DNA of 64,000 nt. It comes from Roseateles hydrophilus (GTDB lineage Bacteria; Pseudomonadota; Gammaproteobacteria; Burkholderiales; Burkholderiaceae_C). Of this stretch, positions 39,259 through 50,555 are shown one piece after another (positions within the stretch are counted from its first letter, which is position 1; each line of letters starts with the position of its first letter). The stretch covers positions 1,178,001 through 1,242,000 of the forward strand of contig NZ_JAPPUY010000001.1 in assembly GCF_026712245.1 (NCBI RefSeq), read 5' to 3'. The position numbers and the translations under genes are program-made. The notes under the pieces were generated by a model that was not told the DNA's origin, ran no database searches, and worked only from the letters and a program-made list of their open reading frames with translations.

Positions 39259-42200
39259 TCAACCGCGTCGCTGCGCAGCCAGCAGCGCATCACAGGCCTT
39301 GAGCGCCGAGGCGAAGTCAAGACGACCGACGGCAGCATTCAGCGCGGGAAACTCGGCGCCCAATGCCTGGGCGTGACCGGCCAACTGTTCGCACAGCGCC
39401 ACGGAGCGCATATTGCGTTCGGCCAGCAACTGGCGCAGCTGCTGCAGCGCCAGCGGCACATCGAGCGCATCGACAGGCCCGCCGGCAGGCGGGGGCGGCG
39501 AGGCGGGTTGCAAGGCCGCCAGCGTCTCCTCCAGCAGCGCCCGCAGCGCCTCAGGATCGGCGCCGGCCACGTCGTTCAGACTGCGCACGGCCTGCTCCTG
39601 GGCGCCCGCCAGCGCGGCCAGCGCATTGCCGCCCACCGCGCCCGCCAGGCCACGCAGCGTGTGCAGTGCGCGGGCGACGTCAGGCACGCTGGCCTCGCGC
39701 CTGCTGCGCCGCAGGCTGTCGATCTCGGCCGGTGCGTCCTTGGCGAACGAGGCCACCAGGCGCTCGTACAGCGCCTGCCGCCCGCCCAGGCGTTGCAGCG
39801 CGGCGGCGCTGTCCAGCAGGCGCGGCGGCGCGGCCGGCGCCGCCGCGGGCACTGCAGCCTCGGCCCGGCCCGCATGGCGCCTCAGGGTCGCCACCAGTTG
39901 CTCCAGGTCCACCGGCTTGGCGACGTGGTCGCGCATGCCAGCGGCCAGGCAGGCCTGGCGGTCGGCGTCCATGGCGTTGGCGGTCATCGCGATGACCAGG
40001 CTGTCGGGCCGCTGTTTGAGGATGCGCTGCGTGGCCTCGAAGCCATCGATGTCGGGCATCTGCAGGTCCATCAGGATGGCGTCGAACGGCGGCTCGGTGA
40101 CCAGCGCAAGGTGGGCCCCCTCCACGCCCCCGCCGGCCAGCGTCACGAGGGCGCCCTCGTCCTCCAGCAGCTCTTGCGCCACCTGCTGGTTGAAGCCGTT
40201 GTCCTCCACCACCAGCAGGCGCAGCCCGGCCAGGCGCTGCTGGACGAGCTCGGCGCGGCGCCGGCGCGGCGTGCCCTGCGTGGCCTCGGCGACGGCGTCC
40301 TGCAGCATAGAGGCCGTGACGGGCTTGACCAGATAGCCGCCCAGCGACGCGATCTCCTGCTCGCTGCGCTCGGCCAGCAACTCGCGGCCATGCGCCGTGA
40401 CCATGATGATGACCGGTGCGTCGGACTCGTGGCTGTCGCGGATGCGGCGCGAGGTCTCCCAGCCGTCCAGCCCCGGCATGCGCCAATCCATCAGGATGAG
40501 TTGGTAGTGCGGCTCGCCCTGCTCAGCCGCGAGGTGCACCAGCGCCAGCGCCTGCTCACCGCTGGAGGCCAGGTCGCAGTCCCAGCCCAGGCTGGCGCCT
40601 ATGCCCTGCAGCACCTCGCGGGCCATGGGGTTGTCATCGACGATGAGCACCTTGAGGCCGGGCCGCTGCAGCAGCTCGCCCTGCGGGTCGGCCGCGGCCT
40701 CGGGCAGGACCAGCTCGAAGTGGAAGCGGCTGCCCTCCCCCACGCGACTGTCCACGCGCACTTCGCCACCCATCAGGGCGACGAGCCGGCGGCTGATGGC
40801 CAGGCCCAGGCCGGTGCCGCCGTAGCGGCGCGAGGTGGTCTGCTCGGCCTGGCTGAAGCCGGTGAAGATGTGCTCCAGCTTGTCGGGCGCAATGCCGATG
40901 CCGGTGTCGATGACCTCGAACCGGATGCGCGCCCGCCCCGGCTGCCGGTCCGGCAAGCGCGTCAGCGCCAACACCACCTCGCCGCGCTCGGTGAACTTCA
41001 GCGCGTTGCCGGCCAGGTTCAGCAGCACCTGGCGCAGCCGCGTCGCATCGCCCACCAGGGCGGGTGGCAGGCGCGGGTCAAGCCGGAACAGCACCTCGAT
41101 GTCCTTGCTCCCGACATTGGCCGAGAGGATGACGGCGAGCTCGCGCATGAAGTCGCTGAGCTCGAAGCGGTGCGGGTCCAGCTCCATCTTGCCGGCCTCG
41201 ACCTTGGAGAAATCCAGCACGTCGTTGATGACGGCCAGCAGCGCCTGCGCGGCGGTGCGGGCCTTGGACGCGTAGTCGTGCTGGCGCGGTGACAGCTCGG
41301 TGCGCAGCAGCAGGTTGAGCATGCCCAGCGCGCCGTTCATGGGCGTGCGAATCTCGTGGCTCATGTTGGCCAGGAAGTCGCTCTTCGCCTGGCTGGCGGC
41401 CTCGGCCGCCACGCGGGCGCGTACCAGCTCGGTTTCGGCGCGGTGCCGCTCGGTCACGTCGATCAGCATCTGCACGACGTTCACGAGGCGCCCGCGCCGG
41501 TCGCGGATGGCGCTGGCGCTGCCGTCGGCGAACAGCTCACCGCCGCCCGGCAACGCGAAGCCGCGCTCGAAGCGCACATGCTCCATGCGCCCGGCGGCCA
41601 GCCGGTTCAGCTCGCCGCCGGGCAGCCGGCCGGGGCGGAAATCGGGCAAATCCGCCAGCTTGCCGCCACGCAGCTCGTCAGCCGTGCGGCACAGCATGGC
41701 AGTGAGCGCCAGGTTGACGTCCAACACGACACCCTGGGCATCGCACAGCGCAATGCCCACCTGCGCCCGCTCGAACACGCCGCGAAACCGCTGCTCGCTG
41801 TCGTTCAGCGCCCGCGTGCGCTGCTCCACACGGGCCTCCAGCAGCTGCCGCTCGACGATCAGCTGCTCGGTCATGTGGTTGAAGTTGCGCGCCAGCTCGC
41901 GGAACTCGCGAAAGCCATTGATGGGCGCACGCTCGTCCAGGTTGCCACCAGCGATGCGCGCCACCGCCCGGTTCAGCGACTGCACTGGCGCCACCAGCCG
42001 CCGACCGACCAGCAAGGCCAGCCCCAGCGCCAGCAGCATCGCAATGCCCAGCGCCGCGAGCAGGCGGTTGCGCAACGCATGCACCGAGGCAAAGGCCTCA
42101 TCGGCATCGATGTTGACGGCGATGCCCCAGTCCAGCACCGGCAGGTGGCGCCACGAGGACACCACCGGCACACCGGCGTAGTTGTGGGTCAGCCCACTCC

Positions 42201-43008
42201 CGCTCTCGCCACGCAGCCCGCGCAGCGCGGGGATGGCGTCAGGGGCGAGAGGGTCCAGCGCCAGCTCGGCGTACTTGCCGGGGTCGCGCCGCAACGTGTT
42301 GACGAAATGGGCCTTGTCGCCGCGGCGCTGAACCAGGATGGTTTCGCCGCTGATCGCCAGCCCGGCAGTGTCCGCCGCCACGGCCAGCAGCCGCGCCAGC
42401 CGGATCTGCAGCACCAGCGAGCCCAGCACCTGGTCACCGTCCACGACCGCCTGCACGAAGTACAAGGTGGCCGGCTCGTCACGGTGGTGCTGGACCACCG
42501 GCGTGAGCTGTGCGTCCAGGCGGCCCAGCGCACGCCGGTGTGCGGCCAGCAGGCCGCTGCCGGCCAGCGTGCCGCCGTCCAGCGTGGCCATGCCGTCGCT
42601 GCTCCCCGGCAGCGGGCGCACCGAAAACGCAACCCGCCCGTCCGGGCGCACCAGCATCACGTTCGCGTACTTGCCGGTGTCCAGCAAGCGGCCGTACAGC
42701 GCACGCTCGCCGTCCAGCGGCCGGCCCATAGGCACGGTGCCGAGCAGCAACTCGCGCGTCACCGACGAGGCTGCCGTCAGGTGCGTGTCGATCTGCAGCT
42801 CGCTGAAGTACTCGTTGATCTCCGTCGACTTCTTGCGCGCCACGGCCACCACGCGCTCGGTCACCGTCTCGCGCAGGCTGCGCTCGTAACTGGCCAATTG
42901 CCACACACCCATCGCGCCCAGCGGCAGCATGGACAGCACCAGAAACCCCAGCAGCAACGCGGGGGCGATGCGCCAGGCCGGGCTGCGCGGCTCGTCGGCA
43001 GCGGCCAT
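39259..43008 (-). CDS. Hybrid sensor histidine kinase: sensor-HAMP-PAS-HisKA-HATPase-REC-REC-Hpt
   Basis: 1249 residues. Membrane helices at ~14-36 and ~308-330 flank a periplasmic Cache-like sensor. HAMP (~330-385) and PAS (~405-525) precede the kinase, with phospho-acceptor His551 in [11 protein letters not shown] and intact ATP-site motifs (NALKF, DTGIGI, GGTGLGL). Two intact receivers follow with Asp841 ([10 protein letters not shown]) and Asp981 ([10 protein letters not shown]), then Hpt His1116 (LHTLRG). The last ~63 residues form a helical tail shared with two neighbouring kinases. ATG at 43008 overlaps the binding-protein stop by one base, suggesting the binding protein feeds its periplasmic domain. 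Confidence 0.93.
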
Positions 43009-49452: not shown

Positions 49453-50555
49453 CCCAGCAGGACGCTCCCACCCCGCCCGCGCAGCCCACCGTGCTGGTCG
49501 TGGACGACACGCCGGCCAACCTGACGCTGCTGGCCCAGGTGCTCAAGCCAGACTACCGCGTGCTGCTGGCCGTCAACGGCGCCAAGGCGCTGGAGATCTG
49601 CCGCCGTCAGGCGCCTGACCTCATCGTGCTGGACATCATGATGCCCGGCATGGATGGCTACGAGGTCTGCCGCCAGCTCAAGGCCGACCCGGCCACACGT
49701 CGCGTGCCCGTCATCTTCCTGACCGCGCTGACGCGCCCGGAGGATGAGACCGCCGGCTTCGACGCCGGTGGCGCCGACTTCATCCACAAGCCCTTCAACC
49801 CGGCGACCGCGCTGGCGCGGGTGCGCACCCATGTGCAGCTCAAGCTCGCCGAAGACCACCTGCTGCGCCACAACCACCAGCTCAGCGGCGAACTGGACGC
49901 ACGCCGCCGCGAGGTGGAGCGGTTGCGCGACACGACGCTGTTCGTCATGGTGGGGCTGGCCGAATTCCGTGACGCCGACACCGGCAACCACATCCAGCGC
50001 ACGCAGGAGTACGTGCGCACGCTGGCGCGCTGGATCGCCGACCAGCCAGGCGCGCCCGCCGAGCTGACCGACGAGGCCATCGACGAGCTCGCCAAGGCCG
50101 CGCCGCTGCACGATATCGGCAAGGTCGCCATCCCCGACGGCATCCTGCTCAAGCCCGGCAAGCTGTCGGCCGACGAATGGCGCGTCATGAAGACGCATGC
50201 CGAGCAAGGCGCGGACCTGCTGCAGCGCGCCATCGACCGCCTGGGCGACGACGCCGGCCTGATGCTGACCTTCGGCAAGCAGATCGCCCGCCACCACCAC
50301 GAGAAATGGGACGGCAGCGGCTACCCCGATGGCCTCGCGGGCGACACCATTCCGCTGGCCGCGCGCCTGATGGCAGTGGCCGACGTGTACGACGCGCTGA
50401 TCAGCGTGCGGCCGTACAAGCGCCCCATGAGCCACGACGAGGCGCTCACCTTCATCCGCGACGGCAGCGGCAGCCACTTCGACCCGCGCGTGGTGCAGGC
50501 GCTGGACGCCTGCGAGGACGCGGTCAAGGCCATCGCCGCGCGCTGGGCCGACTGA
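49449..50555 (+). CDS. Response regulator with HD-GYP domain (cyclic-di-GMP phosphodiesterase)
   Basis: 368 residues, RpfG-like. Receiver (about 14-130) is intact: VVDDTPANL, the aspartate in VLDIMMPGMDGYE, KPF lysine. The HD-GYP domain has the metal pair His221-Asp222 in HDIGK, the HHHEKWDGSGYP segment and the GYP motif at 291-293, plus the DVYDAL helix, so it should hydrolyse cyclic-di-GMP. ATG at 49449 overlaps the kinase stop. It is the only output domain in the locus and so the likely end point of the phosphorelay. Confidence 0.94.
   Translation: MTQQDAPTPPAQPTVLVVDDTPANLTLLAQVLKPDYRVLLAVNGAKALEICRRQAPDLIVLDIMMPGMDGYEVCRQLKADPATRRVPVIFLTALTRPEDETAGFDAGGADFIHKPFNPATALARVRTHVQLKLAEDHLLRHNHQLSGELDARRREVERLRDTTLFVMVGLAEFRDADTGNHIQRTQEYVRTLARWIADQPGAPAELTDEAIDELAKAAPLHDIGKVAIPDGILLKPGKLSADEWRVMKTHAEQGADLLQRAIDRLGDDAGLMLTFGKQIARHHHEKWDGSGYPDGLAGDTIPLAARLMAVADVYDALISVRPYKRPMSHDEALTFIRDGSGSHFDPRVVQALDACEDAVKAIAARWAD

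Follow-up and report, generated by a model that had tools for sequence, protein, structure and literature searches.

The DNA stretch analyzed here (64,000 bp, referred to as the window; positions 1,178,001 to 1,242,000 of NZ_JAPPUY010000001.1) lies on contig 1 of the 4.77-Mb genome of Roseateles hydrophilus, a bacterium of soil and water, and carries a signaling locus of two diverging three-gene operons. The left operon codes for a REC-DHp-HATPase protein (RRHK), a periplasmic binding protein of the urea/amide family (SBP) and the hybrid histidine kinase HK1. The right operon codes for the hybrid kinases HK2 and HK3 and for a REC-HD-GYP response regulator (HD-GYP protein). The constant pair of the locus is HK1 and RRHK. 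The latter has a glutamine at the position of the phosphoacceptor histidine and is, on the basis of sequence comparison, probably a REC-gated pseudokinase.

Relatives were searched in 60 genomes, 19 of them from the same genus, and 16 loci were fetched around SBP orthologues; an initial scan of named genomes, for which SBP was the sole query, had detected no relatives. RRHK and HK1 are present in 18/19 same-genus genomes, SBP (54–63% identity) in 16/19, and an HD-GYP orthologue in 15/19 (13 plus G001 and G004). RRHK is a second response regulator of the locus, more constant than the HD-GYP protein. The gene order recurs in relatives at ~55–92% protein identity and is therefore more than a chance arrangement. 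All six genes are found together in 13/16 genus loci, the other three being those of G001, G014 and G007. The right operon is absent from G007, and the rhodanese gene, which adjoins this operon in relatives, there directly adjoins RRHK. G004 keeps RRHK, HK1, HK3 and the HD-GYP gene and lacks SBP and HK2, while G017 has, of the locus genes, RRHK and HK1 only. Contigs end inside two loci: the one of G001 starts inside RRHK, with the HD-GYP orthologue of this genome located on a different contig, and the one of G014 stops inside HK2. SBP is also missing from G011 (83% complete, ~750 contigs), where no SBP, RRHK or HD-GYP orthologues were found at the thresholds used. The locus is also present in Roseateles saccharophilus DSM 654 (L068). 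Note that a metagenome-assembled genome labeled Methylotenera (L061) carries the locus as well; the label is probably wrong.

The phosphoacceptor position of RRHK is occupied by Gln152 (GIAQELSSPLG) in the 17/17 aligned rows and in L065 and L071, i.e., in 19/19 orthologues. The 24/24 homologues fetched from outside the genus (33–43% identity) have the histidine (HELNTP) and a normal G2 box. The histidine loss is therefore derived and fixed in the genus, and the candidate assignment of RRHK as an ordinary Rec-controlled kinase was rejected. The domains given in the original prediction were found as described, but the lack of the phosphoacceptor histidine in the receiver-HATPase protein had been missed there. 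The RRHK G2 box reads EPGLY in 18/19 orthologues and GSGLY in L071, the most distant one, while the receiver residues are intact. The autokinase activity of RRHK has very likely been lost, judging from these motifs. Conservation within the set is highest for RRHK, with 277/388 positions invariant (17 rows), the HD-GYP protein coming just behind with 257/370 (14 rows). The RRHK REC domain has a ratio of nonsynonymous to synonymous polymorphism (pN/pS) of 0.058, which is the lowest of the 11 domains computed. The RRHK fold, apart from its lost histidine, is under strong constraint. In the structural model (pLDDT 80.1, pTM 0.44) a long hairpin of helices and the fold of the ATPase are both retained. 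The best PDB match of the model is LvrB (8vc9), and the DivL structure 4q20 is among the matches.

LvrB of Leptospira is described in PMC13269768 as the prototype Rec-controlled histidine kinase, which is activated by an upstream hybrid kinase and requires His161 for autophosphorylation. RRHK shares the REC-DHp-CA architecture and has an upstream hybrid kinase that may activate it, but the H-box residue corresponding to His161 is Gln in RRHK, whose G2 box is degenerate. DivL of Caulobacter, according to PMC4211667, is active neither as a kinase nor as a phosphatase and is a sensor of a phosphorylated regulator. RRHK is similar to DivL in having a kinase fold without phosphoacceptor histidine, and it may likewise act as a switch. 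The two proteins differ in that DivL has a tyrosine at this position, PAS sensor domains and a separate response regulator to which it binds, whereas RRHK has a glutamine and its own amino terminus REC.

SBP and HK1 are predicted with high probability to form an SBP-gated hybrid kinase. A same-strand dCache receptor gene adjoins and follows SBP in 16/16 genus loci and in 42/47 loci outside of the genus, and in 0/20 transporter-linked controls. The HK1 periplasmic domain reaches only 18.8 bits with Pfam dCache_1, under the cut-off of 45, but its relative in L132 scores 58.1 bits, above it. The model of the HK1 domain has a dCache fold (pLDDT 86.1, pTM 0.78) and its best PDB matches are dCache domains (PctA, Mlp37, PscC and similar). 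The H, N, D and Hpt-H residues of HK1 are conserved in 17/17 rows; assignment of HK1 as a BarA equivalog was rejected (444.9 bits vs. a cut-off of 890). Mean pairwise identity in the genus is 0.67 for SBP and 0.66 for the HK1 periplasmic domain, compared to 0.89 for the kinase core. Distances of SBP and of the periplasmic domain correlate with r 0.90, and with a partial correlation of 0.84 given the kinase core (n=17; permutation p 0.0005), while the value for the HK1 Hpt, another fast domain of the same protein, is 0.42. The partial correlation of SBP with the sensor domain across 32 non-genus loci is 0.51. The proposal that SBP and HK1 are a pair of the LuxPQ/TorTS kind is supported by the adjacency, the correlated divergence and the lack of a transporter alongside.

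The kinases of LuxPQ and TorTS are hybrid kinases. TorT/TorS, LuxP/LuxQ and XylFII/LytS each combine a binding protein and a sensor kinase (PMC6321045), and many binding proteins are encoded beside their kinase (PMC11113362). The window locus has in common with these three systems the pairing of a periplasmic binding protein with a membrane kinase. It differs from them by the UrtA/AmiC-family SBP, the dCache, HAMP and PAS sensor arrangement and the histidine-less REC-kinase regulator.

SBP scores 261.6 bits with the curated UrtA model, under the cut-off of 492.75, and the closest solved structures are 8tg1, UrtA and AmiC. It is like UrtA a member of the Peripla_BP_5 family, but it has no urtB neighbor and falls outside of the transporter branch. 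As originally noted, SBP has no adjacent transporter: urtBCDE genes were not found in the window around SBP, and the other homologue of the genome, which is UrtA-like (34% identity), is found beside a urtB gene elsewhere. Profile searches with SBP covered 369 (class), 398 (phylum) and 300 (order) genomes in overlapping draws; in several genome searches only 4 to 10 candidates were scored per genome, so that weak homologues may be missed. The phylum search shows a score gap: 35 places in 31 other genomes reach at least 488 bits, and the best of the remaining ones has 439. The set of 47 non-genus loci is composed of L050, the 7 top-scoring loci of the class search, L144 (kept although it scores no higher than the own UrtA of that genome), 8 loci of the order search and 30/35 of the phylum search; the 5 high-scoring places left out are in G1093 (twice), G1077, G1208 and G1195. 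Controls were 20 transporter-linked (urtB) SBP loci. A urtB-like gene is present near SBP in 0/16 genus loci and 0/47 others, compared to 20/20 controls. In a tree of 104 SBPs, 53 transporter-linked rows are on one side of a branch with a Shimodaira-Hasegawa-like approximate likelihood ratio test (SH-aLRT) support of 99, and SBP and its receptor-linked relatives fall outside. Receptor outputs vary and are mostly hybrid or plain kinases. The 5 of 47 loci that lack an adjoining dCache receptor have a chemoreceptor without recognized dCache (L196, L197), a contig end (L209) or no downstream receptor (L138, L207).

The SBP-type gene adjoins a chemoreceptor gene in L133, L137, L196 and L197, and a receptor with dCache fused to GGDEF-EAL in L180, L181, L183 and L210. 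In L207 (G998), an SBP of the receptor type is preceded by a REC-HD-GYP gene but is not followed by a receptor gene. Cys118 was considered as a mark of all receptor-linked SBPs since it was first found in 23/23 receptor-linked and 0/33 urtB-linked rows; the wider set refuted this (17/17 genus rows, 22/47 other receptor-linked rows, 0/20 controls). The residue is found on the receptor side only among the rows examined, yet it is not general.

A gene coding for GGDEF, EAL or HD-GYP is present within 8.5 kb of 21/47 non-genus receptor-linked SBPs and of 0/20 controls; among the 47 contigs several are short, and the genomes that supplied the controls are not those of the receptor loci. The proportion is 11/13 among the non-genus members of the subclade of the window SBP, where the gene related to the biofilm signal cyclic-di-GMP (c-di-GMP) usually codes for the receptor or for the response regulator that comes next. 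The gene order in G049 and G308 is SBP, dCache kinase, REC-kinase and REC-GGDEF-EAL; the REC-kinase of G049, a genome from outside the genus, has its histidine. Recurrence of differing c-di-GMP enzymes beside the same SBP-receptor pair is the strongest support for the originally proposed c-di-GMP output, which is upheld in spirit, though not as the convergence of three kinases on one output. According to PMC9602780, it is general for binding proteins to act on chemoreceptors and on c-di-GMP enzymes. NspS-MbaA, a binding protein with a GGDEF-EAL receptor, likewise couples a binding protein to c-di-GMP turnover; some SBP relatives, as noted, adjoin dCache-GGDEF-EAL receptors. NspS senses polyamines, whereas the c-di-GMP enzyme of the window is a separate HD-GYP response regulator coded by the divergent operon.

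The HD-GYP protein keeps its HD and HHHE.WDG.GYP motifs and its receiver residues in 14/14 rows, and its receiver is ~50% identical to that of RRHK. It is similar to REC-HD-GYP phosphodiesterases of the RpfG type, with a REC and an intact HD-GYP motif, but differs from them in its putative drivers, two kinases that arose by duplication and have decayed in part, next to an operon for SBP and its kinase. HK3 has kept its kinase motifs, while the DD pair of its receiver is changed to Gln-Ala or Gln-Gly in 14/14 rows. HK2 keeps the REC2 Asp and the Hpt His in 14/14 orthologues; its REC1 is degenerate and its ATP-binding N-box Asn is lost in 4/14 (L038, L040, L043, L048). A single clade (support 96/92) unites HK2 and HK3 with the L252 and L253 kinases. 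The simplest reading is that one hybrid kinase was duplicated and that complementary losses left HK3 as the putative kinase and HK2 as the putative phosphate carrier. The nearest non-genus HD-GYP orthologues (59–73% identity) come after a kinase, which is a separate large hybrid kinase in 5/6 fetched loci; in L257 kinase and HD-GYP similarity are within one long open frame. The left and right arms have separate histories because the kinase from which HK2 and HK3 descend precedes the HD-GYP orthologue in other genera, which lack the left operon. Neither HK2 nor HK3 has a recognizable counterpart to the periplasmic sensor of the outgroup kinases. On this basis it is hypothesized that the right arm, deprived of an input of its own, now relies on the left arm. 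In relatives a 323–503-bp gap separates HK2 from HK3 when the nearest start codon is used. The gap codes for an HK3 amino terminus of ~190 residues with multiple helices and was rejected as a hidden seventh gene. This amino terminus reaches the cut-off of no Pfam family and does not match the outgroup kinases' sensor. The window's HK3 is short in this region compared to relatives and overlaps HK2 by 4 bp; its genome seems to have lost the multi-helix extension.

The explanation of the whole locus that is moderately favored is an SBP-gated phosphorelay. SBP, a UrtA/AmiC relative untied to a transporter, would bind a small molecule in the periplasm, and its ligand-loaded or empty form would set the state of the HK1 dCache domain as LuxP does for LuxQ. 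HK1, which has the domains of a His-Asp-His relay, would transfer phosphate through its own REC and Hpt and from there to PleD-like receivers, always to RRHK and to the HD-GYP protein where present. The chances that HK1 actually acts on the HD-GYP receiver appear evenly balanced. RRHK would most likely work by phosphorylation-switched binding to another signaling protein, in a DivL-like manner, instead of phosphotransfer. The second, dispensable output would be lowering of c-di-GMP by HD-GYP hydrolysis, the HD-GYP protein being served by HK3 as intact kinase and by HK2 as REC2-Hpt carrier.

A number of observations weigh against this explanation, and some of them fail to support, as stated, the earlier scheme in which a small-molecule signal gates three kinases that converge on the HD-GYP enzyme as single output. 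HK1 and RRHK persist in G007 and G017 without the HD-GYP arm; the left arm therefore does not need the right one. HK1 is retained without SBP in G004, which also lacks HK2, and in G017, and can therefore work without SBP. As regards the earlier scheme, RRHK is moreover a further response regulator, devoid of phosphoacceptor histidine. The distance of SBP also tracks the HD-GYP receiver (partial correlation 0.68, n=14). Sensor pairing cannot account for this value, and the mirror signal is hence not confined to the sensor domain. The provenance of the controls in the c-di-GMP gene count and the weaker support (87/67) for a direct sister grouping of HK2 and HK3 are to be added. Finally, the data consist of gene content, gene order, residue losses, correlated divergence and neighbor statistics; all physical contacts and phosphotransfers, as well as the ligand and the RRHK partner, are inferred.

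A less probable, though still substantial, alternative is that SBP-HK1-RRHK on the left and HK3-HK2-HD-GYP on the right are neighboring but independent pathways that have a promoter region, and not phosphate, in common. G007 has the left arm only, and so does G017, where SBP is missing as well. Elsewhere in the family, genera have the HD-GYP protein with one hybrid kinase, and an RRHK orthologue was not found there (best non-genus matches 35–43%). Against independence stand the divergent order of 13/16 genus loci and its near-constant gap, the c-di-GMP response regulators present in sister SBP-kinase loci of other families, and the identity between the RRHK and HD-GYP receivers. In another reading, RRHK is a kinase-minus, phosphatase-plus protein whose hairpin dephosphorylates a receiver under the switch of its own REC. 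His mutants of some kinases retain phosphatase activity, and in RRHK Gln152 is followed by Glu153 and Ser156 in the QELSSP motif. Such an activity is nevertheless unlikely: Ser is found at +4 instead of the usual Thr/Asn, EPGLY replaces the G2 box in 18/19 orthologues, and DivL, the studied histidine-less relative of the fold, is reported in PMC4211667 to have neither activity.

On the input side, direct sensing by the HK1 dCache domain, with SBP merely modulating or broadening the response, would explain why HK1 occurs without SBP in G004 and G017 and is consistent with the resemblance of its model to ligand-binding dCache domains such as those of PctA and Mlp37. It is rather improbable given the presence of SBP in 16/19 same-genus genomes and beside the receptor in 42/47 other loci, and the matched divergence of SBP and HK1 sensor. 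An SBP serving an ABC transporter encoded elsewhere, its adjacency to the kinase being incidental, finds a basis in the 261.6 bits obtained with the UrtA model. This score is under the UrtA cut-off, the second homologue of the genome is the one located with urtB, no urtB is found nearby and receptor-linked SBPs are outside the transporter branch; the transporter assignment was rejected and its probability is minimal.

A description of the arrangement was not found in the literature searched, whose coverage was partial. Within the SBP-gated phosphorelay, the input side is of a known kind because binding-protein-gated kinases are already known; its binding protein belongs to a family whose better-known roles are the uptake of urea and the sensing of amides. 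Two elements are new: a constant partner that is a REC-kinase with a fixed His-to-Gln change, and the split HK2/HK3 pair. A more specific proposal is tentative, with the balance slightly against it: RRHK would be the first REC-gated pseudo-histidine kinase working by phosphorylation-switched binding, HK1 would be its genus-wide constant partner, and the HK3 sensor-kinase and HK2 phosphate-carrier halves would be obligately joint on the HD-GYP protein. If the reading is true, one SBP subfamily of the urea/amide family serves as a plug-in module for reception, connected in the course of evolution to kinases, to chemoreceptors and to c-di-GMP enzymes, and knowledge of the SBP ligand would supply an input for many uncharacterized c-di-GMP circuits together. 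With a pseudokinase under receiver control, the concept known from DivL, that of a kinase fold reading another regulator, would be widened to a response regulator with a dead kinase as its own output. HK2/HK3 would provide a natural experiment on phosphorelay splitting after duplication.

The features of the locus are listed in Table 1. The positions and domains of the six open reading frames (ORFs) and their organization in two diverging operons are those previously described, and so are the distance between the operons, the TGATG junction common to SBP and HK1, and the ATGA overlaps at HK2/HK3 and HK3/HD-GYP, deduced from ORF coordinates.

Table 1. Coordinates of the features of the locus (positions in the window).
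Feature	Position	Strand	Description
HK1, hybrid histidine kinase, 1249 aa	39259..43008	-	dCache-like (periplasmic), HAMP, PAS, HisKA, HATPase, REC, REC, Hpt, in this order (Pfam); start ATG at 43008
SBP, urea/amide-family periplasmic binding protein, 411 aa	43008..44243	-	Peripla_BP_5, 312 bits
RRHK, REC-DHp-HATPase protein, 388 aa	44268..45434	-	Gln152 replaces the phosphoacceptor His
Divergent promoter region, 137 bp	45435..45571	unstranded	
13-bp conserved element GGYTTTCCCCAGG	45486..45498	unstranded	51 bp upstream of the RRHK start codon
HK2, hybrid kinase	45572..47908	+	HisKA, HATPase, degenerate REC1, REC2, Hpt (Pfam)
HK3, hybrid kinase	47905..49452	+	HisKA, HATPase, REC without acidic pair (Pfam)
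REC-HD-GYP response regulator, 368 aa	49449..50555	+	REC, HD-GYP (Pfam); HD and HHHE.WDG.GYP motifs

In the 13 relatives with both flanking genes retained, the divergent gap measures 126–139 bp. The element GGYTTTCCCCAGG has a single copy in the genome and is found 51–52 bp upstream in 17/18 orthologous RRHK upstream regions, L071 being the exception. It is probably a regulator site or a promoter part of the left operon, to which it is assigned because G007 retains it while lacking the right operon. An esterase-like ORF (50560–51507) is found between the HD-GYP and rhodanese genes. At most ~150 bp separate these two genes in the 13 relatives for which the pair was observed, and the ORF is unmatched there, so that it looks like an insertion in the lineage of the window.

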